Assembly (NCBI GenBank): GCA_914767715.1
Contig: OU612075.1
Coordinates: 6,572,001-6,636,000, forward strand
Source: Membranipora membranacea
Lineage: Eukaryota; Bryozoa; Gymnolaemata; Cheilostomatida; Membraniporidae
Reading direction: 5' to 3'
Length of the DNA stretch: 64,000 nucleotides
Shown here: piece after piece, positions 135 to 48,600 of the stretch
Layout of the letters: every line of letters begins with the position of its first letter
How positions within the stretch are numbered: position 1 is the stretch's first letter
The notes under the pieces: generated by a model
Told to the model about the DNA's origin: nothing
What the model saw: the letters and a program-made list of their open reading frames with translations, nothing else
The model's database searches: none
Position numbers and translations under genes: made by a program

Positions 135-231
135 CTCAACTAAACTCAAGCTCATATTTACTCCTCTATGGTATATGAATACAATTTTGATGTGAAGGGT
201 AGATACTAGATGGGCTGTTGTTAACACTTAC

Positions 232-3200
232 CGTCTCCTCAAAGGAGCACCTGGCCAGAGCGCCAGTATCTTGTCTGTTGATTCCGTGCCTAGTGATGGC
301 CATCAAGTGACCTTTACATGTCATAATGTCACATAGAAGTGATAAATGTCTGTAGTTTACGTAAGAACCATCAAATGAGATGACGTGGTTCATCTCTTTC
401 TCAATAGAGCGGCGCACAGCCTCAATACCTGCAAGCAATATGGCATAAAATAATACATGCAAAGATCCACAGTCAACTGTCTACTGCAAACTTACAAAAT
501 GACAAAAAGATAGTTATCAGGAACCATAGAAGTCACACAAAAATCAGGAGAACGAAACACCAGATGCATGTGAGAAAAAAGACAGTACAGTAAAGTTGCA
601 AAGATCCACAGAGTCTACAGACTAATTCATTATTTACTATTTGAAAAAAATGACAAAATGAACCACAAAGGTCACACAATCTAAGAGTACAAAACACCGG
701 ATTACTTTTCATCTGTTAGTTAATCCTCACTATGATGATCAAAGGCAATATAAGTGCTAAACTCTGCCTAGTAGTTGGTAGTGGCATTCCATTATGAACA
801 ACGGCTCTGTTGGTTGGGCAGTGGGTAAAAATGGGATGCTACGAACACCATTCTGGACAACATTAGAGTAAAATGGTTACTTTTACAGCGATATTTACAT
901 GAGCCTCTGCTTACCTAGACAGGAGAAAATCTCGACGATATCATTAGAAGTAGATCTCTCCTTGTCCACACTAGGCTCAGATAACACTCTCATCAGACTG
1001 GTACCGTCCGTCTCCAGTATCCATTCTCTTATAGACTCATATTTACCATCAGCTGTGATCTGGAATCACAGATAATATTTGGTCACATATTATTCAGAAT
1101 GTTCAATGTTACATGATAAAGCAATGTCCGCTGAGAGCCTGAACTGACAACCAGAAACATTACAAAGAAGTGTTGTTTCATTCCTGTTTAGTAGTAATTA
1201 AGCTAGCATTGACCTGCCAATGGCTATAATCCATTGCACTCATGGATACAATCTATGGATGCCAATGTGTCTATGTAATTTAAACCCCATATCTATGGCT
1301 GGACTTACAATGGTACGTTTTTTATTCTCTTCTCTGGGTAGATGCATGTAGACTTTAGCGATCTGTTCCACTCCCTGGAGGGTCATGTCAGTGAGCATGT
1401 TAGACTCGATACATCTCAGGAATACATCATCCTCTATCTTATCCGCTATCTGCAAACATAAAACATAATTTTAGGTAAAACTTACTTTAATTTTTATGAA
1501 AACTAATAAATAAATGAAATTGATTTAAATGAGTCAGTGACAAATTATTATAGGTTTCTGATCGGAATTCTGATCATTATCTTGGACGTCTCCAGTAATG
1601 ATTAGTAAATTTTCGAAGTGGCAGAAGCTTGGATATTCATTGAAACATGTGTTGTATTGTACAAAATATTGAGATCTTGAGGAGCATGATGAACACTTCA
1701 CTTATTTGAATAGCCACAACAGAGTTCACAAAACGCATCAAACAACCACAAGGATATCTACTAGTTGACAACGATGACTAAATAGTTGCTTATTGTATCA
1801 CATTAAATCTCAAGCTGAGCCAAAAGTTATAATATAATAAATGTTACATAAAATATATAAAATAATTAGATATAATAAATATTATATTATAATAGGATAT
1901 AATTAATGGTTCAGAGTCATTCATACCTCTTCATCATCCCCCATCTTATCCCCGTCGTTGTTCATAATCCTAATTCTCAGCACCAGTTTCTCTGCATTGT
2001 CATCGTTAAGTATGACGTTCAGATCATCACCAAATCCAGCAGTGATCTTCTCAGCAATCTATGTAAAAGTTGAAATGTAGCAAATTTGAAGCAATAAATA
2101 TGGCTACTGGGATTATCTTCGCATTAAGGTGAGACACGAAACTCTAAGAAATAGCTTCATTTGAACCATAAACATAAAAACACTATACTATAAATATAAT
2201 AAGTATTTATATGTTTATGATTTGACCAATGGATCAACTGATTAAATACAACCGATTATTATTGTGAGTCATTCCATTTTCTTGTGGGAAACACCACAGT
2301 TTTTGAAATATTAATCAACAGTTCTACATAGGTCGGACTGCCAAACACTCAAAAGCCTATAAATGTGTGTTACCTGTTCCATGGTAAGTTTTTTATCTGT
2401 GATTCTCTTTCTGTCCAGTTCGATTCTCAGTAACCATGGCGATATCCTTGAGATATCAAAGTCAGGCATCTCGTAGTATAAGTTGACAAACTCCTGATCT
2501 TCGTTGATGACGGTACTCTGCGGGTTGGGGTCGTAGTATATGGCTGTGTTTGCTGTCACTTTACGTAGCGTCGTGTGCTCCAGTTTACAAAGCACATCCT
2601 GAATGAGGAGATACAGCATTATTAATAATAAAGGTTTAAAGTGAGGTTTTCATATTGGAGGATGTCATTAGCAAAAGGAAAAAATAAACTTTATCACCTC
2701 GTAAACAAACGAAAGAAAAAATATATATGCACAAAAATGATATGTGATTGATGGCATAATGGCAAACTAGAAATCACCAACAAACATTCCATCATTAACA
2801 GACACAACTTATTTTTGGGGTCATTGGGGCAAATGTACATTTAGGGAACACAGGTTGACAGTTTAGCACAGTTTGACATTGACAACTTTCGTGCTATTTC
2901 TTCTTTATTCTGGATTGGTTACAATCTTAATTGGCTCTGAGACACCTACCTTAGCCTTCTCGGCATCTCTTGCAGCCTGTCCCGTTAAGAAGACAGTGAG
3001 CGATGGTGTTTTTGGTTTCTTACTGATGTTGATAATCTCGTTGAGCCTGGGTACACCCAATGTTACATTCTTAGCAGACACACCGGCGTAATGGAAAGCG
3101 TTCAGTGTCCTCTGAGTGGCGGGCTCTCCAAGTGACTGGGCAGCCAGGGCTCCCACCATCTCCCCGGGATGTGCGTGAGCTTGCTGGAATCGTGCCTCAA

Positions 3201-6200
3201 TCTCACCTGTAATTATATACATATAGATTGTGCCTATGCAAATTAATGAGTCAGATTGTCGTTGGTATAAAAATGACTCGGAGCTGTTTAGAGCTGAGCC
3301 ATTGAAGACGGGGAAAGAATGGATGGGCAATTGAAAAGGGAGTTAGAAAATCAACATCACAGCATTGAACAGAGCTCAAACAATGTACAAAGTAATACTT
3401 GTCGATTATAATATCATAACATGGCAAATACTATTATAATATGACTGTAGATAAATGCCTATGTCTCGAATCACTCACTGACAAGCCAGTCGAAGGCCTC
3501 AGCGGTTAGCCTGTGTTCTTCTATAACACGACGAGAGCAGAGCATGGCTCTGACCAGACACTTCATCAGCATAGTAGCGTTCTCGTTAGCCTGCTTAGAT
3601 ATCCTATCGTCACCCTTCACTATCATAAATGTGTCACAGAGGCTCCTGTGAGAAGAAAATAATGTTACATGGACTTAAGCAAAGGTATACATTCGTGTTA
3701 TATCTTACATGGAAAATGCAGGTGGAATTTTAGAGCCTTGCTGTGCTACATTACAGCTGTCTCTTCGATCTCACTAATCCATTAATAAATAAAAGGAAAA
3801 GAAACAAGGGAAATTTGTCAATAAAAAAACTGGCTAAAATTGACCCAACCAATAACCATTTTTTTCCATATTCTCACCTTACGCCTTCCACTACCTTGAG
3901 CGGACTCAGATCTGTCTGTTTTCTGGCGTTGATTCTGAAGATCTTTTTGGCGTTCCATATGAGTCTCTCAATCTTACATGGCAGCACAATTCTCATGTCT
4001 CCCTTAGGGAATACCTCCCTCATACCGTCACGATCATCAATCAGTTGTCTCCATTCTGCCTCCAAAGCCTCAATAGCTCCGGTATCACCAGCCAGGTCAC
4101 GGATAACCTCCTCAGTCAGCACGTTACGTAGTGACCTATCATATACAACAACAAACACGGTGTAGAGAATCGGAGGGTAACCCCCCTCTGTACAAACGTT
4201 CCCTAAGCGTTATGGTAGATGGTACAATTTCTTCAACACAAAAGGACGCAGTTACCTTGTATGGACTCGAGGAATTTAATAATGTATGAACTTGGGTGTA
4301 CATGAGAGAAAGCGTGATTATTATAAAATTTATATAACTTTTGTCCTTTCCAGAGGCCTCACTTTTTATGCCATATCTTAACGACATATGTTCAATTTTA
4401 TCTAAGGTTTCTTTTAATATAAGAGAACTTATCATTAATGTTACTAAATGCAATATTATATCAACCATTTACAACTAACATTCTTAATGCACAAACTTCT
4501 GCTTCAAGATGTCTAGATTTTTGCAACGCAAGAGGATATATTTTCCACATACAAATATTATAAATTTTTGTAATGCATTCTGAACATCTCACCCATCGAG
4601 TTGTTATATAAATTATATCATACATATCATATATAATATATACATACATATATATATTATATTATGTATATGAATATATAATGTTATTACCTTTCATTGG
4701 TGGGATCAAACTTGAACTTCTTCTCGAACACGCCCTGACTAGGTTTGATGGTGGGTATATCCTGGAACTCTACGTGTGTACCGTCCAACCCGTCCTCTCC
4801 GTATTGGAACTGTATGACCTGCTCGACCTGGTTACGTACTGTACCATCGTACCTCACAGATAGAGACTCCATAGCCTTAATCAGCCTACGCTGGATATAC
4901 CCTGTGATAAAGAGAGACAGAGATAGATTATTATTGGAATGAAATCTTCATTTTAACTTATTTTCATTCGCAAGCTTTCCTTTTTCCTTTTTTTCCGGCA
5001 CCATTTGGAAAACATTCCTCTATTGCAATGAAATAGACGGCCAATAAGAGTGTTGAATAAATAAATAAATTGGGTCAATTACTATGCAAATATATATTTT
5101 TATAGGCCTTTCTAGGGTTGGATGCAATGTATAGTTAATCAGTAGGGTAGCCCTTTCTGACTAGTGTTATTAGGCAAAGACCGATCCGAATATCAACATA
5201 TCATATACCGTTGGATAGCTAGCCAGCTACTGAAAATGAATACTTGAACAAAAACTTGATTCGATGACGTTGTGTCATTTTAGGGAGAAAATGAGGCAGA
5301 AAACACTGTTTTTGTCAATGCAGATGGAGGATTAAAATTAATTGCAAGAAATTTCAAAACAGGTGGAATGTATACTTAGAGATGACGTTCATCATAAAAT
5401 TTGATTTTCTCTGATATATGACTAGTCTAAATTGACTTTTTACGTCACGCCATACAATGCATTTTTTTGTGAAGCTATGAAAATATGTGAAATTTCAATC
5501 ATCAATTCACAACAGATCATAGGCGCAAAACAAAATTAATTATGATTTTCTCTTAGAGTACTCTTCAAATGTCATACAAAAATTTAGCTTGCATAATGCA
5601 ATGACAGTAGACTCTCGAATACAGTTAATATTTCCGTCACCTTTGCATAACGTCAACAGAATTTTTCATTGCATCTTCATTCTTCTTTAATTTAACGCAA
5701 AAGAATGCCAAAAATCAGCTATTTTGAGGGACTTTTTAGGGACTTTTGAGGTGTTTTTTGGCATTCTTTTGTGTTAAATTCAAGAAGAATGAAGCTGCAA
5801 TGAAAAATTCTGTTGGCATTTCCTGTGTGCACCATGGTTAATGAGAGCGGCTTCGTATGTGAGAACTTTCAAAAAAACTTTGTTTGGCCACAATAATGGT
5901 TATTCGGACAGCATGTTTGACGTTATGTAAAGGTGGCGAAAATATTAGCTGTATTCGAGAGTCTACTGTCATTGCAATATGCAAGCTAATTTGTTGAAAG
6001 GCAATGTATACGACATTTTAAGAGTACTCGAAGAGATTATCATAATTAATTTTGTTTTGCGCCTATGATTAAATTTTGAATTAATGATTAAAATTTCACA
6101 TATTTTCATGGCTTTACAAAAATAATGCATTGTATGGCGTGACGTAAAAAGTCAATTTAGACTAGTCATATATCAGAGAAAATCAAATTTTATGATGAAC

Positions 6201-9200
6201 GTCATCTCTAAGTATACATTCCACCTGTTTTGAAATTTCTTGCAATTAATTTTAATCCTCCATCTGCATTGACAAAAACAGTGTTTTCTGCCTCATTTTC
6301 TCCCTAAAATGACACAACATCATCGAATCAAGTTTTTGTTCATGTATTCATTTTCAGTAGCTCGCCAGCTATCCAACGGTATATGATAGGTTGATATTCG
6401 GATCAGTCTTTGACATTACCTTAAGTCTTAACTTCCTCGAAGGATCCCAGTCAGAGAATCAAACTACCAGCTAGTGTATGACACTATAGATATATATATA
6501 TGAATAACAACTGTTTGGGATGGCCTGAATGATAACCCTGCATAAGTATACGTGGATTAAGCCTCCCACCCTTTTTCTACCATTTTTATAAACGAACTAC
6601 AGCATAAGTTGTGTCAATATGGTGCCAATCATAGAAAGCGTCTGCTTACCTGTCTCAGCAATTTTGACAGCTCTATTAATGAGACCCTCTCGTCCTTCCA
6701 TGGCGTGGAAGAAGAACTCTGTGGGATTGAGACCGGCCAGGTAGGAATTCTCTACAAATCCTCGAGACTCAGCACCGTAATCGTCTTTGATGAAGTGAGG
6801 TAGTGTTCTGTGTCTGAACCCAAAGGGAATACGTTTACCCTCAACGTTCTGCTGTCCTACAAAAGCGATGACCTGTCACAAAGTAAGAACAGTTTGTATT
6901 ACGCTGTCACAAAATAATAGAATTTTACATCACGCAAGCTGTTTCTGTTTTGTTTTAGGTTTCCACACAAGTTCATAGCAAGTAGCCACTACAAATTAGC
7001 ATGTATTGTATTTTGAAAGCGGAATAGCAACCCTGAGGCTAGCCAGCAACCAGCAGTATCCCTGTTTTTCTGCTGGCAGTGGATGGACAATGTGAAAAGA
7101 GAGAATGGGAATACATTCTCAACTCTGTTTTCACCATTCATCAAACATGTAAAAAAACAATTCATCATTTCCTGCCATATAAAATTGGTCAAAAAATATC
7201 GTAAGAACAGTATATAAGTCCATTTAATTATTATTTTTATTATAGACATATCAAATTTTATAGCACCGTACCTGTGAGATGTTAATTTTGGATCCCTTGG
7301 CTCCTGACACCACCATAGCCTTGAAGTTGTTGAATTCTGACAGAGATTTCTGAGCCAGCAATCCTGTTATATCTCTGGCGCCATTCAGGATTCTGTTGAC
7401 CTGATTCTCAAATGTCTGTCTGAGTGAGTTACCCGGAGTCGGCTCCAACTCATCGTTGTGGGCTTTCTCTATAATCTCAAACACATCCGCCTAAGGGAAA
7501 GATATGACAGAACATGTTTCATATTAAATCAATATCAACTACATGACATAATGTAATAATCATTATTATTAATAACATTTTAATTTATTAATATGTTATT
7601 ATATTATTATTTATATGATATTATACATATTATCACATATTTTAGGATTCTTTGAACAACAGCTCCAAAATGTCACTGCAATTCATCTGGGTTCATTGAT
7701 GCTGACTTGTGTCATATTTCTCAATAAATGTGATGCATCACAATCACAGGATATTCCAGAGTTGAGGCAAATCAATTTTGAAATCACACCTAACCTGCTT
7801 TCAGAGTCAAATGATTTAAATCAAATCCCTTGAAAGCAAGAACACAGATTTGTCAAATGATTTGATTCACTACAACTGATTTGCCTCAACTCTGGGGTAT
7901 TCAGCATCATAATATAACCTAGAGAGTCTGAGGCAATAAAAAATAATACTGTCATTCCTCTTGTAGTCAGAAGGTCTGACATAAGTAACGCTGCCACCTC
8001 TTGTATATAAGAGGTAATACCTGACATACTTTCTCAGAATTCTGCTCTGGGAGGTTCAACTTTTCAGCACAACCCTCATCAGTTTCAGAATGCAGCAGAC
8101 CCTTACGAGCCTTGTCAATAACATCCGACACGTCATCCTGATATCAAGATAACCAATCAGATAAGAGGTTACATTTAATAACCAATCAGCATAATAATCT
8201 CATTGACAAGCAAATGTGCATTCAGTAACTGAGATACAACACTATAGCCTTGCGCAAGGAGAGCTGCTTTACTCTGTTACACCTTGTAGTAGGCAATGTG
8301 TTGGTACTGAGCTGATCCCACCAGCTAATCAGAGCCAACACATCGGCTAACCTCGGAGACCTTGTGGAAAAGCTGTTGAAAATATCGATTCCCCCACACT
8401 CTGACGCACTTACCCTGGCTTTTCGGATGGCCTTCCTAATGTTGATATAAGTATCCTGATCGGCGATACAATCACCGATACCGATACTGTGACCCTCCAA
8501 CATGAGCCAGTTATTGATGGTAGTCTGGATATGTGAGTAGAAGAGTCCAGCCTCCTCGTGACTCAGCTCGAGAGCGACTATGTGAAGTATAGAGCCGGCT
8601 GAGGCTCCCAGGGACTTCTTACAGATAATACCACTGATCAACTCACCATCCTCTACCAGAACCTGAGACGAGGAAATACAATATAATATATAATCATATT
8701 ATAATACATATAATATTTATATATATATATATTTATATAAGATTGAGATCTTATTTACCAGCTCAGTGGGGACATCAACTATTATTTACCCTTGAGGATT
8801 AAAGTATTATCAGGTAGAAAATATTTGCGCAGGCTAAAAAAAGTGGATTATTATGGCTAGATAGCTCCTCAAATTGTTACCGTACACATAGTATATCATA
8901 CCATCTATGTACATGTTTATTTCACAGCATTTCTATACATACTTCAATATTGAGAATGAAAGAATGGTCTACTGGCCACACTGAGCATAAAAAGAACTGT
9001 TGTGCTAAGTACAAAATAACAGAAAAGATAACTGTCAATACTGCCTGCCAAAATAACTAACACTGTCTGCTAGATTAACGCTCCACCTAATACGCTAACT
9101 ATTACTGCTGCAGAATCAGATATTTGAGAGCAAAATATCACCAATCAGGTGATAATTCAACAGAAGAACATGAAGTTACCTACCCTGGTATCTCCAGGAG

Positions 9201-12200
9201 ATATCCACTTATAGGGTCCGCTATCTTCGTCATCAGGGTGAGTACTGTGTAACCTGATACAGTTAACTCTACCCGGTATAATCTGTGAGAACAGCTGCTT
9301 ACCAGTCCACAGGGGTGTGGGCTTCAGTACAGCGGGTATGGGCATACGCCCGTCCCATCTGGGCAGGAACATCAACAAATTCATCATCTGCTCCTGTAAT
9401 GGATAGTCAAACAGCTGGTCATCACTTTTCACTAACATAAAACGGCGTAATATTTCAATGAAAAACATTCCTAAAGATGATGTAGAATGACAATAAAAGT
9501 ATATAAGGCTAAGATATGAATTGTGAAACTGGGGCAATAATGAGGACCAGTTTTATCAAACTGATTATCAGCAAATTCTATGCATCCAACATTGCAGCTA
9601 TATAATGGAAGAAATTGATGGATGGATACTAATAAAGTTTGAAAAGAATTGGCCAATTAGTCCTGGAGTTATGAGTGAAACACCAGGGGAGAAGTATGGA
9701 TGGGCCATGTTAGCGAAAAGGACCAAAATCACAACAGCTTATTCAAACCATGCTATCAATTTGACAAAAAAAAACATTCTTCAGAGGCATACTAGGTCAT
9801 GTTTTGTATAGTTTTAAAGATCTCAGGCTGAAAAGCCATTAGGGCATATGAAATAAAACAGCCTGTGAGCCTAATTGCAGTAAAACTTCTGCAAAGTCTG
9901 AAAAATTGGGATCATAGTGGATCATAGTGATTTATTGCCTCCCCCTGACCACTTTGATCCACTATGATCCTTGCTTAAATAATTGAAAAAAAATCTAATT
10001 GCTATTTTCCACAATTTTGATTTCTTTATTATTTGCATTTACCCTATGAACTCACAATATTTGATTTACTGGGGTAATATATCCACTTTTCTAATAGGTT
10101 TGACCCTTTTATAAAATAAATAAAAAATGATAATAAAATGGATAAATGTAATAATATTTAAATGATAAATTAATAATTTCTAATGGTCACTTACTTTAGT
10201 GAGGAAGATGTCACGTTTAGTCATTTTCCTGACAGCTGTGAGGGTGTCCTGTACGATACCCATGACAGGTCTGTTAGACTGAGGAGTAATAATCATACGG
10301 GGTGACATAGCCAGCTGAAGGATCTCAGCTCTCGCCTCCATAGACTGAGGTAAGTGAAGGTTCATCTCATCACCATCAAAATCAGCGTTATATGGAGTGG
10401 TACAACTGGAAACATAGATTATCTGTGATGATTATGAAGGTAATATAAAGGCTAGGATAAAAATTACCTTCATATTCTAATGTAATCACTAGGTGGAGAC
10501 AAGTATTCGTAGGATGAGAATTTCTCCTTTTTGCACATGCTTGCAGCGGTGAAATCTGTGGCAAATCAATATGAACCCAACCGCATGACTTTACAAAAAA
10601 CTCAAACCAATGCAAGTGAGTATTAATGTTAGCTGATATTGAGTCACTTCAACATTAAACTCTAGCTAATAGTTATACTATGGCAGTAAGCATTCCATCA
10701 AAGTAATAATAAACAAAGCCACTATTTACCCATTCAGGAAATCATCTGATTGTTGAAATACATAAGTGTGTAGTTGTCTTCTCATAGACTTCATTGCCTG
10801 AGAGCAGACTTAACAAAAATCCAAATACATTACAAATTCTTGTCCGATACAAAATAAAAGTTGGTTAACGCCATCATGTTTTAGAGTTACTGATGTTCAC
10901 CATACCTGAGGTTGAGCCTGAACGTAGACCAGGGTAAGATCTTAGCCTTGTGACCCATCATACTCATTTTATGTAGTGTGGGCTGTCTGTAGAAGATGAT
11001 AACATCATCATCCTGCATGTGTCTCTCTACTTTATATCCCACCTCCAGATGAAGGTCACTGGCCTAGAAGCCAAACGAAATGAATTGTTATGGAACAAAC
11101 TAGGACTATTTGAAATAATAACAATTGCTGGTTTTAACCAGTGATTTACAAATAAAGACATACAAGACGATTGTTTGTTGTAGGAGTGTAGATGAAAAAT
11201 TAAAACGAAACAATCAAAAGCCAATCTACGAGATGCTAATAGTGGAGGCCATGAAAACGCCCCTCAAACATGCTTGTAGTATACGATCCCCGTTATCATG
11301 TATGATATATTTAGCCTTAGTACCTTAGGATGATATCGGAGATCTATAAGATCCCCGTTATCACGTATGATATATTTAGCTCCAGGATACTGTGAGTCTC
11401 CTCTTTGTACGAGCTCCTGTAACTTCTCTAAGTTAAACGGTGTCACTATCTCGGGGAATGTCATGTTCTGTGCGATAGATCTCGGCACACCCACCTACAA
11501 AATTATGTATTATATATATATATATATCAATCATAAAACAAATAAGGTAAGAACATAGCATAGCTGACAGATGACCAATGATTACTGGAAGGACAGTGGC
11601 TTAGTTAGCTCACCCAGAAGGTATTTGTTGTCTATTTAAACCTGACCCAGTTGGTGCAAAACTGTCAAAATTTAGCAGTTGTAGTTCATAAAGGTTGATG
11701 AAATATGGTTGATTAAAATAAGGGGCTCTTATAAGACGCCTCATGTTTGCACATAAGTTGTATTTGATCCCGGATGCTAGTGTTGGATATACTATGATCA
11801 GTTTGAGCAAAAAACATGTCTTACCTGATCGATTCGAAGATTAGGATCTGGTGTGATGACAGTTCTTGCTGAAAAGTCGACACGCTTTCCCATCAAGTTT
11901 CCTCTGACTCTTCCTTCCTTACCCTCCAGTCTGGCTTTTACTGCCTTCAGCGGTCTGCCAGATTTCTGTGTTGCTTTGGGTAATCCTGAACAAGAAGGGG
12001 AGACCAACAATTTCAATACTGTCGTATACATCAAAAAACTGGTATTCCCTTTTATTCATCTTAAATTTATGAACCACTAAATGTCTTATCAGTTATCGCA
12101 GTGTATTATCTAGCCTCAGGGAGCAATCTGTTGTATCAAGGATTGCTGGATTATGACAGTTACTACATTTCTAAGCTCAAAATATTGTAAATAATTCTTC

Positions 12201-15200
12201 ATTGACACTCTCACCAAATACTCTACTATCTCAGCAAAAATTAAAGAAACCTATTATAATAGTTCTTTCAAGCAAGTTACAAGATGACTTCTTACCAGGA
12301 ATGTCATTATCGATGAGTGTTGAGACGTGGAACTGTAGAAGTTTGACATCTTCAGCTATGATATGCGCAGCTGCTCCATTCTGTTCATTTCTCAGCAGCT
12401 GGTTGTTAGCTTTAACTATGTCAGCCAGTTTGTGGGTCAAATCATCCTATATGTAAATGAATTAAACATATGTTGTCGAGTTTTGGCAACAGATATTCTC
12501 AAGCCACAACAACACTCGGGGTATGGCATCTGGCTGCGAACAACATATATAGTTACTGCAACTCAAGGGTGAGCAAAACACACCCAGCATGTTGTGGTCC
12601 CAAATAATCACATTGGCGTCTTAATGTCAATGACAAGATGTACAGACTACTAGTACAATTTCCTGTCAAATACACGCAAAAATATCAAGCAAAAAAAGTG
12701 GTCTAAAAAGGACACAAAGATCACATACCTGATTCTTAGCCGAGCCAGCCATGACGACAGCTGGACGAACAGACAGAGGTGGTACAGGCAGCACAGTGAC
12801 TAACATCCAGTCAGGTCGAGCAAACTGAGGACTCAATCCCAGGATAACAATCTCATCCTCTGCAGACAAAAAATTTATAACTTATTACATGATTGCAGTG
12901 AATTTAATTTTACAAATTAAATTAAACTTAATAAGTTGTTCAGATATTCGTTCATGGATTCACAGCAAGCTCAAAGGTAATACTATCACCTGAGCTCACA
13001 TCATGGTGTGTAAGAATTCATCCTACCAACCCTGCTGTGCTTCATCTTTGAGAGTGTTGTGTACATTTGGAAGTTGTCTTCTCGCTGAAATTGGTTGCCT
13101 AGGGGAGCACAACTCAAAACTAGATACAAAATTCTACATTTTGGCAAAACTACTAATAGATACCTGTAATGCGCTTGAAGATCTCATGCACTCTCTCAGC
13201 TGTGAGTACCATCTTCTTCTCCTGTGTCTCCTCGTTGACATCTTTCCACTCAGCTGTGAGCTCCAGACATGTCCTTCTTATTTTGGGCTGATGACGACCG
13301 CAGCCACCATGTCCCTGATTAAATTAAATTTCAAGAATTAAAAATTTGACATAACCTTACATGCTATTCATGTAACACACATGCAGTACAAAACAACACA
13401 CTGGAGCTGTGGTGGTCATGTTGTGACAGAGTTTGATGGACAAACTGATGACATTGCCCTTATTATTTACAAACTCCCAGATTAACCTAGTTCGATATCC
13501 TTGCAGAAGTCAATAAACTATCAAAATAATTAGTCTCTCTCAGTCAAACTGCATGCAATGTATAAAACAGCTACTGGTCACCTCCACATAGCTCATACTT
13601 CTACATATAAAGTCACCGTTGCAACTGCTACCTACCTTTGCTGTCCAGCTATCAATTATACTTAGTTGCAGATACTTTTATTTTAATTACTGTTTGCCAA
13701 ATTCAAGGGGTTTTTATTGGTTTGGTTACGCTGCTACTTTTTTTGTTTGGGGGGGGGGGTACCTCCAAAACAAAAAAGGAGCCGCGTGACAAAGCTAGGT
13801 TTTTATATTTTCAACGTACACCTTTTTTTACTCGTAAAAATCTCTGGAGAAGGATTATTAAATTAAACAAACAAACCACCTTCTATTTAAAGTCAGTGGT
13901 GCAATTGTGACCTCCCTTTGCTTTCGCATTTATAGCTTACCTTCTTTTTTCCGTCGCCCTGTTCCTCTGCTTGATTCTCCTTATCAAACTCGTCTCCTCC
14001 CTCACACAGCTTCTTACCCTTACACAGATCATATATACCTGCCAGTCTCTTACGAGGGTGTAACTTTGTCTTAGATAGTACGCTTTTCACTGGTGCCCCA
14101 GCCTGTATAAAGAAATGAATGATAGAGTTTGTAACACAATGCCTATCATCTATGTGTATATCTATTTTCAAGCTTTAAAATCTCATATTCTTCCTCTGTT
14201 CTCTGATGTGCCATGCATTTATAAGTTATTTACACAAATATGGTAAGATTAAGATGGTTCATCTCTATATTATAGAGATGAACCATCTTAATCTTCCATA
14301 TTTGTTCCACTTAATGATCAAAACTGCAACTTCATAATCATCACACATCACCATTACCGCCAGTTCATGAGCAACAATGAGAAAATTTGGTTGCAATTAT
14401 TAGTTGTTGTAAAATATGTGGCAGGCTAACACATATAATGGATTCTCTTGTAGACAACTCACAGGGTCAATAAGCAGCTTTGAGCAGTAGAAGCACACAC
14501 ATCTCAGTACTTTGATGGTCTTTGTAAAGAATCCGATGTGATATACTGGTTTGGACAGCTCAATGTGGCCGAAATGTCCGGGACAGTCATTCATAGTGCC
14601 AGCACATGTCATACATCTGCAGAGAAAACACATAAAATATGAGGAAAACATCATCAATAATCCTGGTTTCACAGAGAGTCAATAGTTGTCTTTGATGCGC
14701 AATTCTCTTAGGAGACAGGGGCATGGTCAGAACATATTAATATATAGCATGCCTCTGCATCAACGGGCCTTAGGAGTGAAGTTGAGAAATTGCCGCATTT
14801 AGAGTATTCAACGAAACATACAGAGCTCACACTCTTGGGGGGTTTTAATCTTAATCTGCAAAACTTTGTCACCCATTCACTCTTATTGACATGGAAACTC
14901 TCAATTCGTTCACTGCTTGATGGAACTATATAGTCATAGTGAAATTTGTCTGATAGAAAGAGCAGAATAGCAGGGATCACAAGCAATAAATTTTGCTTGA
15001 ACAGCCTCATAATAAATTAAAGACCCATTTCTTACCAAAAAATCAGATCGCTTGCCTACCTGGAGTTTCTGTCTACAGTACCCTGACGCGGGTCATTGAG
15101 CCCTTGGAGTTTAGGTCTACCGCCCTCCATGGTCTCAGGGTACTTGATGCCTCCTTCTGTGACTGACATACTTCGCTAAAACACACAATCAGGTTTTAAG

Positions 15201-15666
15201 TAAGTTGTTGGTTGATGTTTGGTTCTGACAAAAAAGCAGTGAAATATCTGATCAGAACATTTTTTGAATCATATCTATCCATGACAGTAGTATATCACAA
15301 AACTGGCATACTTTGATAACAATGTGTTTAGCTTTCTCCGATTTTTCCTTGTTGAGAAGAAGATAAAGGTCTTGTTTTCAAATGATGAACATCTTGGTAG
15401 GACTTTGTGAGCGATTCAATAAAGAATTCGCTCCTATGACAATAGCATATCTAATCTTCACACCTCGAGCTTGAATCATATATTTTGTGTTACAGTAAAA
15501 TTTGACTCTCGTGTGCACAATATGAACATATAAAAACAATAAACTACACCCTTCGTGAGATCTTTTATAGCCTTACCAACTCATCTGGTGACAGGATACC
15601 AAACTGCACACGCTTGACCGTTCGCACTGTAGCTTTAGAATCGTTAGTCAAAGCATTGGTAGCCAT
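232..15666 (-). CDS. POLR2A: RNA polymerase II largest subunit RPB1, 25 coding exons, 3' end (CTD) outside the window
   Basis: Catalytic subunit that makes mRNA in the nucleus. Exons, transcript order: 15577-15666, 15060-15175, 14463-14616, 13941-14102, 13164-13314, 12729-12859, 12296-12446, 11825-11985, 11324-11494, 10906-11063, 10195-10405, 9184-9393, 8414-8662, 8021-8137, 7272-7490, 6650-6872, 4691-4901, 3878-4135, 3479-3645, 2950-3206, 2374-2598, 1927-2058, 1309-1449, 915-1059, 232-428. All introns are GT-AG and the sum is 4407 nt, exactly 1469 codons without a stop. The start gives [20 protein letters not shown], matching the RPB1 N-terminus. Landmarks: clamp zinc site C70, C73, C80, H83; catalytic NADFDGD with Asp 490, 492 and 494; bridge helix near 870-900; trigger loop near 1130-1145; foot and cleft domains after that. 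The heptad CTD is not reached. Odd points: several invariant active-site residues are changed and exon 14 is extra (see findings). The identification is certain; whether this is the only RPB1 copy is not. Confidence 0.97.
5175..6412. mobile_element. 1.24-kb near-perfect palindrome (foldback element) in RPB1 intron 16
   Basis: The left end CAAAGACCGATCCGAATATC (5175) is the inverse of the right end, which finishes GATATTCGGATCAGTCTTTG at 6412. The two arms of about 600 bp match almost base for base up to a centre near 5735, where GAATGCCAAAAA faces TTTTTTGGCATTC. There is no coding potential. This is a foldback, long-TIR type nonautonomous DNA element. The flanks TTATTAGG and ACATTACC do not give a clear target duplication. 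Confidence 0.85.
7751..7901. repeat. Imperfect inverted repeat in the intron between RPB1 exons 14 and 15
   Basis: ATATTCCAGAGTTGAGGCAA (7751) recurs inverted as TTGCCTCAACTCTGGGGTAT ending at 7901, with about 100 bp between the arms. It could be a small MITE. It would fold in the pre-mRNA between the two related exons 14 and 15. Confidence 0.75.
8021..8137 (-). CDS. POLR2A: RPB1 exon 14: in-frame 39-codon extra exon in the funnel region
   Basis: This 117-nt exon is bounded by a good acceptor (CAG/GATGAC) and donor (CAG/GTATTA), and both ends are phase 0. It codes residues 706-744, starting [15 protein letters not shown]. Removing it joins the end of exon 13 (KAIRKAR) to the start of exon 15 ([13 protein letters not shown]), which is the contiguous order in human RPB1 (KKAKQDVIEVIEKAHNN). 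The exon is therefore additional to the known protein, and its start resembles the start of exon 15. It may be a duplicated exon, used constitutively or as a cassette. The splice signals are seen; the usage is inferred. Confidence 0.8.
11283..11382. repeat. Partial duplication of the end of RPB1 exon 9 in the adjoining intron
   Basis: GATCCCCGTTATCAYGTATG followed by ATATATTTAGC occurs at 11283 in the intron and again at 11350 inside exon 9, 67 bp apart and nearly identical. On the minus strand both copies read roughly AKYII(H/R)DNGD. The intronic copy lies just past the exon 9 donor and has no splice site of its own that I can see, so it looks like a small tandem duplication and not an exon. 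Confidence 0.75.
14235..14304. repeat. 70-bp hairpin in RPB1 intron 3
   Basis: CAAATATGGTAAGATTAAGA at 14235 is mirrored by the inverse sequence ending CATATTTG at 14304. Arms of about 33 bp are broken only by one extra base, and the loop is a few bases. It is one of several snap-back sequences in this window. Confidence 0.8.
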
Positions 15667-16469: not shown

Positions 16470-17800
16470 AGTGCATATACAGACTAGGCCTCTATGTTAC
16501 AAGTACAAGATACCTAATATCCTACTGAGTGTATGTGCAGACTGGGCCTTCAGGGCACAGGTACAAGATACATAAAATACTACTGACTGCAGACTTGGCC
16601 ATCAACACACTTACAAGATACCTAATATTCTACTGAGTGCATATGCAAACTGGGCCTTTATGATACAATTAAAAGATACCTAGTATTCTACTGAGTGTAT
16701 GTGCAGACTGGGCCTTTATGATACAATTAAAAGATACCTAATATTCTACTGAGTGTATGTGCAGACTGGGCCTTCAGGGAATAAGTACAAGATACATAAA
16801 ATACAACTGACTGCAGACTTGGCCATCAACACACTTACAAGATACCTGATATTCTACTGAGTGCATATTATGCAAACTGGGCCTTTATGATACAATTAAA
16901 AAATACCTGGCCTCTATTCTACAAGTACAAGATACATAGTTTTCTTCTGACTGCAGACTTGGCCTTCTACGCACTTACAAGATACCTAATAGTCTACTGA
17001 GTGCATATACAGACTAGGCCTCTATGTTGCAAGTACAAGATACATAATTTTCTACTGACTGCAGACTTGGCCTTCTACACACTTACAAGATACCTAATAT
17101 TCTACTGAGTGCATATACAGACTAGGCCTCTATGTTACAAGTACAAGATACATAATTATTCTACTGACTGCAGACTTGGCCTTCTACGCACTTACAAGAT
17201 ACCTAATATTCTACTGAGTGCATATACAGACTAGGCCTCTATGTTACAAGTACAAGATACATAATATACTACTGACTGCAGACTTGGCCTTCAACACACT
17301 TACAAGATACCTAATATCCTACTGAGTGTATGTGCAGACTGGGCCTTCAGGGCACAGGTACAAGATACATAAAATACTACTGACTGCAAACTTGGCCATC
17401 AACACACTTACAAGATACCTAATATTCTACTGAGTGTATGTGCAGACTGGGCCTTCAGGGCACAAGTACAAGATACATAAAATACTACTGACTGCAAACT
17501 GGGCCTTTATGATACACTTACAAGATACCTAATATTCTACTGAGTGCATATACAGACTAGGCCTCTATGTTACAAGTACAAGATACATAAAATACTACTG
17601 ACTGCAGACTTGGCCATCAACACAATTACAAAATACCTAATATTCTACTGAGTGTATGTGCAGACTGGGCCTTCAGGGCACAAGAATAAGATACATAAAA
17701 TACTACTGTCTGCACACTTGGCTTGACACCAATAAAAGATAGGCCTACTTATATTCTACTGACTGCGGACTGGGCCTTAATAACACACAAGTAAAGATAC
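16470..17800. repeat. Dimeric minisatellite, about 1.3 kb
   Basis: Two alternating half-units of roughly 50-56 bp repeat for over 1.3 kb. Half-unit A contains AAGATACCTAATATTCTACT then GAGTGCATATACAGACTAGG; half-unit B contains AAGATACATAA then CTACTGACTGCAGACTTGG. The A-B dimer of about 106-110 bp is the higher-order unit. Copies diverge by point changes and some junctions are A-A. There are no ORFs. It lies upstream of the RPB1 start codon, probably in the 5'-UTR intron. Confidence 0.9.
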
Positions 17801-29636: not shown

Positions 29637-31792
29637 AGTTCAATGTTCCTGGCAACGAGAGGACTAAAGAACAGTTGGCGGTCATACGGAAATTTTATCG
29701 CAACAGACACAGATACTCAGTTTAAGGGGCTCTCCCTGTATTGTTCATAGGTCAGTTAATACAAAATATTCACATGGCACTTGCGTACTCTCTTTACAAA
29801 TAAAGCACCATTCACGCCAGTCACCGCTGAACAGGTTATGGAAAGGATTCAAATTGGTTGTTAAGTCTTCTGATTCTTGTCTGGCCAATGATGGCAAAGA
29901 GTATCGCTACATCCTGACAGTTCTTGATGTCATGAGCCGATTTTGTTGGGCAAGGCCTCTTCAGCGTAAATCAAGTTCGTCGGTGGCTGCTGCCCTGTTG
30001 GATATCTTTGACACTTATGGTGATCCTCTTATTGTTCAAAATGACCGAGGAAAGGAATTTGAGGGGGAGGTAACCAAGCTTTTGAAAATCAGGAAAATCA
30101 AACACATACAGAGCTCTCCCTATCATCCGCAATCCCAAGGAAAGGTTAAGAGGAGTCACAGAACGCTGAAGAGTGTGTTTGCATTTCACATTCTTAAAGG
30201 TAACTCTTTGTGCTGGGCTGACGGATTGAAGGACAATATTAAATTGGTGAATGATCGACCCAAACGTGTTTTAGGGAATCAGTCTCCATTTGAGGTGTTC
30301 TTTGGCAAGTCAAAGCATGGCAGATCTTCTCTCACCCCAAATGAAATTCAGCAGAAAGCTAGGCAGGCAACTTGCGTTTACACCAAATGTATGATAAAGG
30401 CACAGGAAAAGACACTGAAAACTCCTGTTTATGACATTTATGATAAAGTCTTGGTAAGGGTACCTTTTAAAAAGTCCAGAGAGACCTCAAAACAAAAGTG
30501 TAGAAAAGCCATTGTGATCGAACGCAAGCTTGATTTCTACAAGTACATACTATTGTACAAGGATGATGCAGGCCATCATAAGAGATCTTGGTTTTCAGTG
30601 AAAGACATCACATCTTACACTCAGAAGAAACAGCAAGAGAGTCAAATTGCAAGTGAGCTAACGAAACCGCTGGATCATAATGACCGGATCAACAACTTGG
30701 AAACGGAGCATGGTTTAAATGTTATATTTGACCCTATAGGTGACGGAAATTGCCTCTTCCATGCAGTTGCTTTCCAACTCAGTTCAAATGGGTCAAACCA
30801 TGAATCACTTCGTTCTGAGGTAGTGAACTATTTACTTTCTCACCCATTCTTGGCCCAACAACAAAATGACATTTCGGCATCATCATTTGTACAGCATCTC
30901 TCCAGCAGATTACCTCGTCTCCATGGGTAGAGACGGGACATATGGTGACCATATCGTGATCCAGGCACTTGCAGAAATGCTGAGTATCCAGATACTCGTT
31001 CTATTCTCTACAACAGAAGCAAATATTCTGATACGACCTGATGGCCAAAACGTATTTGAACCAAGTGAACCATATATTGTCCTTGGTCATTTACCAGAAA
31101 ACAACGGCGAACATTACGTCGCACTTGGACAAGATTTGGCTGATATTGTTACTGTGATAACAAGATCACCCCAGATACAACTTCAGACAGAGAGCAAGGT
31201 TGATGTGACTCCCCTAGCAAGGGTGCAACCAGCAGTAACGCCCCGAAGCCCAATGCCAGCTGTACAGGCCTCAGAAGACGTTAATGAGAACTTGTTAGAC
31301 CTTCCAGTTGAAATGCTAACAATTATCTTTACTATGGTTATTGACAATAACTTTACAATATTATAATATGAGATGTTGCTGGAGATGCAAGAATTGTATG
31401 AGTTCGTATCATTGTATGTTACAAGACCCAGCCCATCCTTACTCTCATTGCCAAATCATATCGTTAACAACATTGTTCAATTATCTCTTTCTGGAGATAT
31501 TCTCACATTTTGTATGCTGAGGAAAATGCATGAGCTGAACTTTCTAATCAATGATGTCTTCATACCAAGGGAAACAATTTGTATGAATGCTCAGCTTGAA
31601 AGTACGTTGAATCCACACAAGCTGCCAGTAATTGGAGCCATATCACGAGCTAGCGGGAGAAACAGTGGGCTCATGATTGAGATCAAGAGGTGGCTTGTAT
31701 CCAACAGCGCGCGGTACAACGCTTGGTTAGTTTTGTTGGCAGAAAGGAATGGATGGTATGTAGTTAGTGATATATTTTGGAAGAAATATTGA
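29637..31792 (+). pseudogene. Ginger transposase: integrase core + OTU protease + F-box-like region, broken
   Basis: Integrase core: EYRYILTVLDVMSRFCWARP, then GDPLIVQNDRGKEFEG (second catalytic Asp), then SPYHPQSQGKVKRSH. In this family the K before RSH is normally the catalytic Glu; here codon 30148-30150 is AAG. The first catalytic Asp region (about 29845-29862) is out of frame with a stop. After about 250 residues comes an OTU cysteine-protease domain: DPIGDGNCLFHAVAFQL (Asp and Cys) and GEHYVAL (His). A one-base shift near 30900 separates its two halves. The tail, continuing to 31792 past a stop at 31364, has two F-box-like stretches, LLDLPVEMLTIIF and LLSLPNHIVNNIVQLSL. A short upstream piece (from 29637) is the remnant N-terminus. 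The intact family protein would cut and join DNA, and the OTU part would remove ubiquitin. This copy is inactive. Confidence 0.8.
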
Positions 31793-39438: not shown

Positions 39439-42400
39439 TCAAGGTAACAGTTGTTTTAATGCTGTTTTAAAGTCTGTAGATTTGAGAGTGAATCCTTCCT
39501 CAGTAAGTTTTGACGTGTCTAGCTGACAATCGTAGGGTCTGGGAGTCGCTGTGGGAAGAGGTTCTGTGGTGTCCGCTAGAATATCATAATGAATTTTGTT
39601 ATAGAAATAAAGATGGCAGAGCAGTGTCAATGAAATGACATGATATGCAGCATTCTATCTTTTTCCTTACATATGTTGGTTTTAGAGGCCAAGAAATAAT
39701 AAGCTCTAGCAACAAGTTTGCTCAGCTGCTTATTTGCTCAATCCGTTTCGAACCAGCCATGTCGGACAGAATCATATGCATAAAGTTTGATCATAATGCT
39801 GTTCTACTGACTAAGCGTCAAAAGAATGTTGGGCTGTCCAATAAAAAGCCTCGGATTGGTTACAAACTTCCTAGAGGAGTTTTTTTGTTCTATGCCCGAA
39901 TCAGTGAGCAGTCACCATAACGTTGTACTTTTGGAAGAGCGTGATGGCTGGGGTTCGACTTTCCAACAAATAGATGCATTTCTTCTTGAGCAAATCTACT
40001 ACTTCTACTACTGGAGGGCAACGGTAATCAATTTGCCAGTTTGAGGTCTTGCCACTAAGACCATTTTATACATCATTTTATTTTAACTACTGCTGCCACT
40101 CAGGCAAATCTGTGCTCATTGAATTCTTTATAGCTCCAAGATAACTAATTGAGGATTTTATCTCAGAATTGTCACCTAATAAGCTAATAATTTGCAAGAA
40201 CTGATCTTCAAAATCAGGGTATGAAGTTGACACACTAGCTGATGACATCATTAATTTCCATTAGTAATGCAGTAACTACGTCACATGATACAGTAGATAA
40301 TTAATTTCATGCTTGATTTTGACATCAGATTGTGCAAATTATTTGCCCATTAGGTGAGAATGCTGAGATAGCAGCCTCATAGTATTAGTTTTGAGCTATC
40401 CAATAAGCACACATTTGCCTGTGTGGCAGCAGTGGTTTAAGTAGACTTTACCTGTGATGTGTTCGGACTGCAATCCCATAACTTCAGCCATACTCATCGC
40501 CATGTCATATTTACTCAGCTGAACTGACTCAGAGAAATGATAAATACCCTTCACTGAAAACGGCTACAAATATCACAGAGTATTCATTGTGTGATTTCAC
40601 TTTGCAAGAAGCAATATTACTAAGGCCTCAGCTTTGCTGAGCAAATGCATGGATTGGGTTGCATGAAATATTAGCCTGGTCTTTGTTTACCACTCTCATT
40701 ATAATATTCTCCTTAGCATAACAGGTAGATTGAACCTTTCATAAGGTGTGTGCAGCTGTAACCATTAACACAGAGAGGCAAATGAACAAGAGAAAAGACC
40801 CCAGATCGTATATAAAATTGAACACCAACATAAAAACTCTGACACTACAGTCCACTTCCCCTTTCTAATTTTCATGTCCATTTTTTTGTTGCATATAAAT
40901 CTTTGTATTATCAAACATCCAGAATATAGGCCAAAACAAACTAAATAAAGAAAAAAAAAGAAATATACAAAATAAGATATAAAAAAAAAGACTAAAATGA
41001 AGAAAAAAACTACAAATATATATGCTCACCTTTGTAGAATGTTTGTCAACCATTTGATGAACAATATCAGCCACATTATCAGTATGAGTTGGGAATCGTC
41101 TTTGCCTGTGATCCATCTTACAAGCTTTACTGGAATCCTTTACTGCGTTATAGAGTGTAGTAACTGCACTCTCTCCTAAATACTCATACGGTCCATATAG
41201 GATAGGAACTCTTAGCACTGCATTATCTGCAAGAACAATTGACTATGGTAAAATATATAAGAGGGCTGGAACAAATTGCTTGCTCTCAAGTCTGATCAAA
41301 TTTTCAATGTTTATCATTTGCCTGAAGATTGAAACCCAATTGAAACGGTAGTGCAACAACTAATGTGAGCTTCTGTCTGTCCTCAGTCTCAAAAACATGT
41401 CAGAGCACACTAGAACCTCGGACCTACAGGATGAAGGACTGCTGAAAAACAATTTCAGCACTTCATATTTAAGTGCAATAACTTCATTGACTTTGTTGCC
41501 TATTGAAAAGAAACTTGTAATTCAAACCATCTCTCTCAAAACGTGCTGCTTGCAATAGTTATTGACTGCTCTTTATACACATCAGGGAGTTTGTGAGATA
41601 TTTTTCCCAAACTCCCTGTTTGCAATGAACTCCCTCTTCCTCAGGAATAACAACAGGACGATATTGACCAATCAGCAAACAGTATCACTTGAGCTATGTC
41701 TGGGACATTTGTTGAAATCAAAATGGCCGCCAAGTGATGAAATCAATATTACATCTATGAAATAAAATGGCTAATAAGCCCGTATTCCTTACAAAAGAGT
41801 TCATGACTATTAGTTATATCTCAAGAAAACATCTTACCCTACCATTCTACAGATGCATCACTTGCCAAATATACCTGATAGTAGTGTTATTGATTATGTG
41901 AATATCAACACACGTGTGTATTTTGTTGCTTATTTCTTTCTTGGCTCAAAAAATGTAGTTAGGGTGGTCTCTTGGGCCCCAAACTATGCTCATTGGATAG
42001 AGCAGATGTTGTAGGTAATCAACTATGTTTAACTTTTCCAAAACATTGTCCATGTGAGGGTATAGCAAGCCACAAAAGCAAAAATGTGTCTTCAAAATAC
42101 TTCACAAATGATGCAATTTCACAATAAATATCTTCAGTCATAGTGCACTTAGAGACATGTGGTTTTGTTTATCAGGTAAACGCCCATTTGATTGAGATCA
42201 GCTATGAATCAAATACAGCTTACTACCCCTCAATAATCCTAGAAACATGATCTGCTCTGCTCTGAATTGGTGGCAGTGAACCTTCTCAGCCAATGAAAGC
42301 CCTGATATTATTTGATGCAGTGAGTCTATTGTTTATTTTCTATTGTTTAGTGGCATACACAATGGAAAGCCGAATATTCCTATATAGACCTAATCTATTA

Positions 42401-45671: not shown

Positions 45672-48600
45672 ATGTCAACTCAAAGTGAAAAACTGATATT
45701 GGTTGGACCTCGATGTATAAAGGATTCTAAGCTCAGGACCGCAGCACAGGTAAGTGAAGGGCAAGAAATAAAACCCTGTGACACCTTAGTTTAAAAAGTA
45801 AATGGGACGGTGGTGTAGCTTTAGCTACATCCGTACTCTGCAAGCAGAGTCCCCTAGTCAATCACTCATCTTACCGATAGTTCTGCTTTTATGGCATTGG
45901 ATGAGTCTGTGCAGCGCAATCCATACACAACAGGTATACCTTCTAGATAGCCTCTTACTGTTAGTCTGCGTCGAGACTCGAATTCATGACCATTCACATC
46001 AGATGCGTTGAGAGGTGAACTCCTATACCCAACCATGACCGACCTATAACTCTAGTGCCAACCCAAGCACAATAGATGCCAGTCTAATGGAAATACTACC
46101 TTAGTACAATAGACCAATACGTGACAGTAGAACCTATCAATCATGTATAAATCTCTGTAGGCGTAGTACCATAGACTGGAAGACTGTCTAAACTGGAACA
46201 TGTCATAATAAGCATCTGTTTTTGAGCAGTTTTCACCAAATATTTTAAAATAATATTATGTTACTACTATCAATATTCCTTGTTAACATTATGTGAAAAT
46301 TTCTTTTTGTAGAAATTTTCGGATAGATATGAGATATGTTTCTCGGACACTGGTATAGAATACGCTGGCAGTCTGGATGACACGGGAGTCATCACAATGG
46401 TGTATGATGAGTTTACTGATGAGATCTTTCACAAACTGAGCACAAGGGGGTGCTGTATCATGGGACCACAGATAGTAATCGCAGCCGCTGAAAAAGACCC
46501 TGTGAGTCAATATTTAACTCGTCTCTTTCCTTGTTTTGATTAAAAATTTGAGGTATTCACTACAAGTTGTCCAAAGCTTGGCATGTAAGATATTTTCTTG
46601 GTGGTCAAGAAATACAGTCACAGATACTTGTATCTATGCTCAGTATGATTAAGGTTCTCATGCTAGGTTTTTGAAGTTGAGTCCCGCCTTTTTTGTTGGG
46701 AGTTGGCCCTGGCTTCTCTGAAATCACCTGGTCATAGCTCAATCCAATAACATAGACTCTCGTAGGGAGAACACATCTATACATAGTATGCCATTGAGTG
46801 GTAATGATGATCCAATGAATCAGCTTTTTTCAGATTTTCAGATCACAAGCAATTCTGTTAGTCGTCTTATTTCTTGTTGGAGATGCACAACTACAATTTA
46901 AAATGCACATTTGAGCAGAACAAGGGGTTTTGAATTACAAATAAGGAGTTTATGTATGTACATACATTTTTCTGTGCTCCATTGGCTGCCAAACAGAGAT
47001 CAGAAGTGTATTATCCCTTTAAGATAATGCCTGATATTACATATTTTAGTGGTTTAGAGAATTGACTGATGTCTGACAGAATGTGATTGATAGGGCGATT
47101 AGCAGTGGTCACTATTTGGATGAGCCAACAAATTATTGATTGCCTTCAGTTTCTACTCTCCTCTTTTCGCTAATAAAATATTGGCATGTAAATGTTCGAT
47201 GTCATATCTATGGTAATTTCTTGGGTGCTAAATATCACACTGCTCAGAAAATTTAAGTTTGCTTGTTGAAAAAACCAAGGTCAACTTATCCTCTCATATA
47301 TATACATTTTTATTTGCAATTCGTCATTCACACATGATCTCCCTGAAAAATAAACTATGATCATAAAGAAAATCAAGGGAGAAATCTTAACTCAATCCCC
47401 TGAAAACAATTTAAATTTATGTATGGTTGATGATGAACGCATACATGTTGAGGAAGGTTCTTGACTGCTGTAGTTGTATGAACTAATGCTGTTCATTAAT
47501 GACTATCTTGGACAATGTCCAAAACACATATAAATGGACATGATCAAGAAGGATCTCCAATCCTGTTCTCTCAGTGTGAAGAGGATGCTCAGGACAGGAT
47601 TAGAAGGAGAAGTTTGATAGAGCTAAGCCTCCAGCAGGCACCCGCTTCCCGAACAGGAAAGTGCGGAGATATGTAAGGATTAATGACTATCGTTTATGTT
47701 TTTCTTTCGACAGCCCGCCTTGTCTCGGAGAAGACGACCCGTGTACAATAACGCCTTGAAGGATCAGGTGATTTGTTTTACTGGCTTCAATGAGAGGTCA
47801 CAGATATCACAGCTTGCCTCTTTAGTACATTACATGAATGGAACAATACGCAAAGATTACAGTCCTAATGTTACTCATGTCGTGGCCAACCATTGCAAGG
47901 GTGAAAAATACAAAGTAAGTCACTTCTCTAATTTTTGTTTCTTGTTTTGCTTGCTAAGGCACATTCGGAAGAAATGATGAAGATTGTTGTCAATAAATGA
48001 ATAAAAAGAAAAAAAACATTATTTATGATTACTTAAAAACTGCAATACTGCGTATACGGCCACATCTCATTGAATAACACATCAGTTAGTGGAAAATGTA
48101 TTGAAGATCTCCATGCACCATTTAGAGACGTGATCTGTAGAGTCATTCACTTGTAACCTTTTCAGACATAGCTATTTTCAAACCTGTTGTTACAATACCT
48201 GTGCTCCATTTTTTTGTAAATGGAGACGACTCATTCTATTGTGTTTGCTTATTTACATTACACCCATGTATTACTGAAATTCCTTTGGTTATTTTTGCAA
48301 ATAACTTGTCTTTTAATGGTATTAGAGGCCAAGTATGTGTCAAACATGCATTATTCGAGGCATTTAATTATAACTAACTGCTTATTGATTGGTGTGCCTT
48401 CAAAATTAACTTACTAGGCTATTGGGTCCTCCGAAAATAGATACGATACTCAATGTGATGTGTTCCTAGAATATGGAACAAGCGCAATAGAAGGCTATAA
48501 GGATTAATGATTGAATTTCCAAGTCCATCTCTTACTGGCTTGTGGTCTCCAAAAACCAGCTGGCATGGAATAAAACTATATAAGGTGTGATCAATAAAAG

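Follow-up and report, generated by a model that had tools for sequence, protein, structure and literature searches.

The gene described here raises the question of whether the bryozoan Membranipora membranacea tolerates an RPB1 subunit with a rewired bridge helix, or whether the locus is a divergent paralogue of RPB1, the two options between which the original prediction did not choose. In the window, i.e. the whole 64-kb stretch of DNA that was analyzed, the question centers on the following features.

232-15666, minus strand: RPB1 (POLR2A) gene, 24 coding exons, from the ATG (15666) to about residue 1430.
10195-10405, minus strand: coding exon 11, harboring the intact catalytic NADFDGD motif, located by spliced alignment.
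6650-6872, minus strand: coding exon 15, harboring the bridge helix, with acceptor TGTGACAG, donor GTAAGC and an open frame.

The 3' end of the gene, including the CTD, falls beyond position 1 of the window. The exon model was obtained by spliced alignment guided by a human RPB1 sequence, and, as the alignment script permits only GT-AG introns and no frameshifts, the absence of frameshifts and the GT-AG pairs are partly built into it. A tblastn comparison of Watersipora subatra RPB1 with the window recovered the same 24 pieces, one copy each and with no block missing, and revealed no second RPB1 within the 64 kb. Over about 1,430 residues (about 4.3 kb of coding sequence) there is no stop and no evident frameshift, a usable GT-AG pair borders every exon, and an in-frame TGA is located five codons upstream of the ATG. 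For the last exon the script ended at 223, while the probable donor, read by eye, lies at about 231/232. All seven RNA_pol_Rpb1 Pfam domains (1-7) score above their cut-offs, identifying the product as a homologue of RPB1, and the earlier description of the bridge-helix exon as open, correctly spliced and without obvious decay is in agreement with the absence of stops and evident frameshifts and with a GT-AG pair at each boundary.

The intron that follows the bridge-helix exon contains an additional element.

5175-6412, intron after exon 15: foldback inverted-repeat element, outer arms of 294 nt that are 98% complementary, with nested arms.

An alternative, canonical exon 15 within the intron was considered and rejected, as each exon was found only once in the window by tblastn with Watersipora RPB1. 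Upstream of the RPB1 start, self-comparison offsets indicate a tandem array with a repeat unit of roughly 108 nt (16470-17766). Further along the window we observed an exon similar to MAT2B (methionine adenosyltransferase 2 subunit beta; 40868-41242, minus strand, PDB match with E=6e-15), ECT2-like exons (47687-52774, plus strand) with BRCT and RhoGEF matches, the latter under the Pfam cut-off, and a retroelement-like open frame (29668-30927, plus strand) with an integrase core domain followed in the same frame by a match to an OTU-type cysteine protease. Rfam matches were absent across the window.

The bridge-helix exon, the translation of which contains VIAFVGQQ, had been designated exon 16 but is coding exon 15 when the ATG exon is counted as the first. 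All four predicted changes are present and were read from their codons: G819E (GAA), D826N (AAT), T827R (AGA) and T831I (ATT) in yeast numbering, in which PMC3533926 prints the segment as 819-GGREGL-824. While the yeast equivalents were given correctly, the numbers 876, 883, 884 and 888 originally assigned to these residues were not, and the changes in the assembled protein are G837E, D844N, T845R and T849I. The same exon also encodes C782F in window numbering, a residue that the offset places at yeast C764. The protein thereby departs from the canonical bridge helix, (G/A)GREGL(I/V)DTA(V/I/C)KT. That the four residues are near-invariant was borne out, as G, D, T and T occupy these positions in 120 of 120 listed best homologues, including Watersipora RPB1 (P0001).

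A wider set comprised 360 proteins from three protein searches, each of which contributed its 120 best matches (of 7958, 1482 and 1036), and the bridge-helix motif was readable in 350 of them. Among these 350 motifs, G fills position 819 in 325 and A in the other 25, with E in none, so that this position is near-invariant rather than invariant in the wider set; at position 826, 349 motifs have D and one has E (P0161, with a shortened motif), and N does not occur; at position 827, 347 have T, two have M and one has K, and R does not occur; at position 831, 348 have T, one has I (P0231, Rotaria) and one has Q (P0161). Accordingly, no relative sharing E819, N826 or R827 was found in the 350 motifs from the 360 listed homologues. 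A further 83 loci consisted of 79 titled archaeal, one titled Proteobacteria and three viral contigs, the 80 genome loci being the best 80 of 583; here G819, D826, T827 and T831 are kept in 82 of 82 readable motifs, with the count for G819 biased because the seeds partly contained GGRE. Bryozoan-titled entries did not occur among these best 80 of 583 prokaryotic loci and three viral contigs. The DTAxKT core, described in the original prediction as kept in Pol I, Pol III and bacterial beta-prime, is nevertheless not universal among archaea: by our alignment, Methanocaldococcus jannaschii carries Q817 at the position of yeast T827. Other natural deviants of the bridge helix are P0231 (Rotaria sp. 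Silwood1), with T831I and A832V, P0157 with T827K, and P0340 and P0345 with T827M.

This degree of retention (D, T and T at 826, 827 and 831 in nearly all, and G or A at 819 in 350 of the 350 motifs, together with all four residues in the 82 readable loci, nearly all archaeal) argues against the possibility that the gene is the sole RPB1 of the species and encodes a rewired Pol II active center with compensating changes. Its open frame next to ordinary-looking genes (the MAT2B-like and ECT2-like exons) would fit a sole RPB1, as would the fact that some of the changes affect positions at which, according to the mutant literature, substitutions raise activity and could offset others. Still, we regard this possibility as very unlikely, also in view of the changes found outside the bridge helix.

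2950-3206, minus strand: coding exon 19, encoding the trigger loop, in which M1079R and T1083A in yeast numbering (residues 1097 and 1101 in the window protein) are found, along with G1065S and K1120N (window numbering).
7272-7490, minus strand: coding exon 14, funnel segment, with residue 742 changed to G, K746I and S749L relative to Watersipora (window numbering).
11825-11985, minus strand: coding exon 8, in which the switch 2 region carries K339E, from the alignment with homologues.
10906-11063, minus strand: coding exon 10, with N454Y, a neighbor of the NTP site, from the alignment with homologues.

The trigger loop, to which the same window-to-yeast offset of 18 applies as to the bridge helix, reads QRTLNAFH in place of the canonical QMTLNTFH, and M and T are found at both columns in 120 of 120 listed homologues. 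K339 and N454 would correspond to yeast K330 and N445; K330 is presumably a template contact, a role for which our literature search found no paper. K339E and N454Y are extra changes at invariant sites that a sole RPB1 would have to accommodate.

When invariant columns are defined as those identical in the 120 listed best homologues (best 120 of 7958) and the window protein is cut at residue 1428, it is altered at 14 of 554 such columns: K339E, R421L, N454Y, G837E, D844N, T845R, T849I, N977K, G1065S, M1097R, T1101A, K1120N, M1216I and F1242L. The uncut count is 15 of 558, the fifteenth change, D1432S, being read-through beyond the last donor. In addition, K746I and C782F affect near-invariant columns (119 of 120 each). 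Among the marks of a pseudogene, stops, frameshifts and lost splice sites are not evident across the 24 exons, whereas loss of constraint at invariant sites is present. Seven of the 14 changes reside in the bridge helix and trigger loop, which together contribute 65 columns to the 554 (P=4e-4 by a hypergeometric test); the bridge helix alone accounts for four changes in 32 columns (P=0.006) and the trigger loop without it for three in 33 (P=0.02), values which are flattering because the trigger loop was picked after its changes had been seen. A scan independent of modules found four changes inside 13 residues (P=0.005). Enrichment was absent from switch 2 (1/16) and from the NTP-site stretch (1/38). 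The totals of other proteins are of similar size, with 19 of 573 for P0053, 13 of 567 for P0023 and, using its own leave-one-out set, 10 of 564 for Watersipora P0001; none of the seven proteins compared, which include these three, has a change in the bridge helix or trigger loop.

In the alignment with close relatives that had been proposed as a check, the closest among the best 120 of 7958 matches is Watersipora subatra RPB1, which is 90% identical (144 differences in 1424 columns), while the next listed matches, among them brachiopod, mollusc, nemertean and annelid proteins, are at most 78% identical; with a 495-residue query, no match above 73% was among those listed. The Watersipora protein starts at the equivalent place and shares the domains of the window RPB1, but it is canonical in the bridge helix and trigger loop and at K339, N454, K746 and C782, unlike the window RPB1. 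Similarly, a JGI fragment with bryozoan-type residues (P0241), obtained with a 100-residue query, has a canonical bridge helix. A comparison of 141 shared residues gave one difference between Watersipora and P0241 and 10 between the window RPB1 and P0241. Canonical residues in both relatives again speak against a sole, rewired RPB1.

A maximum-likelihood tree of 20 taxa grouped the window RPB1 with Watersipora with a support of 100, by which a deep eukaryotic paralogue is ruled out. The branch of the window RPB1 measures 0.090 and that of Watersipora 0.046, and for the exons with bridge helix and trigger loop the lengths are 0.086 and 0.0075, an 11-fold difference. Polarization by the commonest state in 22 outgroup proteins, which is sometimes a bare plurality, assigned 66 changes to the window RPB1 and 35 to Watersipora, with 45 unresolved. 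In columns that are at least 99% conserved, 20 window-specific changes stand against two Watersipora-specific ones, and the excess on the window branch amounts to about 18 changes in conserved columns and about 13 in others. Tajima-type counts relative to Lingula were 60 for the window RPB1 and 35 for Watersipora (P=0.013). As judged by these sequence comparisons, the window RPB1 is of bryozoan ancestry, probably from a cheilostome as its one close relative Watersipora suggests, and lies on an accelerated branch.

Of the two original options, the divergent paralogue is favored because changes at invariant sites are spread over switch 2, the NTP-site neighbor and the trigger loop (and at near-invariant sites over the funnel), and because Watersipora and P0241 are canonical while the window branch is accelerated. 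We therefore suggest, with a probability of roughly 0.6, that the locus is a duplicated RPB1 gene under relaxed or otherwise altered constraint in its catalytic core, and that a canonical RPB1 located elsewhere in the genome serves ordinary Pol II transcription. The canonical gene, which would be expected to carry HAMGGREGLIDTAVKTAET, and relaxation as the cause of the changes are both what we infer from this pattern. As the locus contains introns, the duplicate would not be a retrocopy. The similar excess of changes in conserved and in other columns fits relaxed constraint.

How far decay alone could account for the gene was estimated by simulation of neutral decay starting from the window RPB1 coding sequence, with assumed indel rates. 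If all 14 changes were neutral, about 51-53 substitutions would be implied along with 1.6-1.9 stops and 2-4 frameshifts, and the chance of seeing no stop and no frameshift would be 0.006-0.027, or up to 0.076 if only 10 changes were neutral. As the whole account of the gene, decay is therefore possible, if strained. The clustering of changes in mobile catalytic parts is not what plain decay would predict, and uniform decay does not fit the near-unchanged last 112 residues of the visible protein.

223-1059, minus strand: last two visible exons, residues 1317-1428 (112 residues).

In this tail the window RPB1 differs from Watersipora at a single residue where about 8.4 differences would be expected (P=0.002), compared to 145 differing sites in the part that ends at residue 1316. 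For the tail, the branch of the window RPB1 has a length of about 0 and that of Watersipora of 0.010, while the remainder of the window protein gives 0.098. Among 2871 control pairs, a tail fraction so low falls under the 1% quantile, yet it does occur. With a near-unchanged tail and a diverged remainder, the gene looks mosaic, with an apparent breakpoint between exons 22 and 23 (about 1060-1310). Such an appearance could have arisen by gene conversion with a canonical copy, from a chimeric assembly or through local constraint. The mosaic look might be taken to indicate that the locus is an artefact, produced by sequence errors or by the fusion of two copies or haplotypes into a chimera, an explanation we hold to be highly improbable: random errors would bring stops and indels, which are not evident in the coding sequence, a chimera would still require one diverged parent copy, and tails as similar as this one are found among the control pairs. 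RNA editing was also rejected as a means by which canonical residues could be regained, as among the codons examined A-to-I editing could restore only G819 (GAA to GGA) and D826 (AAT to GAT), while those at T827 (AGA), T831 (ATT), M1079 (AGG), N445 (TAC), T1083 (GCT) and K330 (GAG) are unrestorable.

Adaptation to amatoxins was likewise rejected: C782F and G819E, the latter at what we take to be a residue of the amatoxin pocket, lie in or near the toxin pocket, yet the changes in the trigger loop, in switch 2 and at T831 are not needed for resistance. In PMC3276164, the alpha-amanitin-resistant C777Y of C. elegans is placed in the toxin pocket, and it would map to C782F by our deduced numbering; the window RPB1 differs from the C. 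elegans resistant alleles in that catalytic residues unneeded for the toxin are altered as well. A literature search for alpha-amanitin together with bryozoans yielded nothing beyond a review of fungal peptides.

Published single mutants give an indication of how the product might behave; the residue equivalences between M. jannaschii and yeast are those of our own alignment. In the passages available from PMC2776397, D816N of M. jannaschii (yeast D826N) is among the superactive RNA polymerase mutants, and substitutions of Q817 (yeast T827) give superactivity. Long, charged or bulky replacements of T821 (yeast T831), in contrast, lead to a dramatic loss of activity, which is attributed to contact with the RNA 3' end or the NTP; isoleucine is not named in those passages of PMC2776397. 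This loss adds to the evidence against a sole RPB1. According to PMC3533926, yeast G819A is slow and the triple mutant G819A/G820A/G823A is lethal. D826 appears to neutralize K830 through a salt bridge in the closed trigger loop (PMC5127505), and the M1079 pocket has many variants with a gain of function (PMC5127505, PMC10069792). PMC5127505 also indicates that gain- and loss-type changes can suppress each other in some yeast pairs. If translated, the window RPB1 should fold and assemble, with the seven core domains and DFDGD retained. G819E would introduce a charge into the bridge-helix hinge, D826N would deprive K830 of its partner, with T831I the 3'-end/NTP position would be occupied by a side chain that is bulky and branched, and M1079R would break the trigger-loop pocket. 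Extrapolating from the published single mutants, the product would probably be a poor polymerase unless its gain- and loss-type changes compensate for one another.

The mixture of gain-type changes (the D826N equivalent and the M1079 variants) with a loss-type change (the T831 equivalent) would, given the mutual suppression described in PMC5127505, also be in line with a functional, specialized RPB1 paralogue of restricted role, comparable in kind to the polymerases Pol IV and Pol V of plants. The open frame, the retained DFDGD motif, GT-AG pairs throughout and the concentration of changes within bridge helix and trigger loop point in the same direction. The closest kind known so far occurs in plants, where, according to PMC7714444 and PMC10229537, NRPD1 and NRPE1 are RPB1-type duplicates with an altered trigger loop and, in NRPD1, an altered bridge helix as well. 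The window RPB1 shares the altered bridge helix and/or trigger loop of such paralogues and looks like an early stage of a Pol IV/V-type change. However, Pol IV and Pol V have features of their own, namely a trigger loop that is shortened, a deletion within the bridge helix of Pol IV and new domains at the C-terminus, whereas the window RPB1 belongs to an animal and displays point changes only, without a deletion of the Pol IV type; we keep it out of the Pol IV/V class, since its duplication is a deduction. Moreover, E819, N826 and R827 occur in none (0/350) of the motifs, giving no sign of an altered state that has long been conserved, and the excess of changes strikes ordinary columns too. 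We therefore consider a specialized paralogue quite unlikely; a duplicate under relaxed constraint is more probable than either this or a rewired sole Pol II.

A partial parallel in another animal is the divergent RPB1 fragment P0231 of a bdelloid rotifer, with which the window RPB1 has T831I in common (HAMAGREGLIDTVVKIVET) but which differs from it in having A at 819, D at 826 and T at 827. Searches of the open-licence literature listed no paper describing an additional RPB1 of an animal in which the bridge helix is altered. It is unlikely that the locus is either a second functional animal RPB1 with retuned bridge helix and trigger loop, resembling Pol IV/V outside plants, or a compensated sole Pol II. 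If the gene were the sole Pol II, near-universally conserved catalytic residues would be dispensable in a compensated background. The locus may represent either a duplicate of a core enzyme in which the active center is the first part to lose constraint, or an experiment of nature in catalysis by compensated changes.
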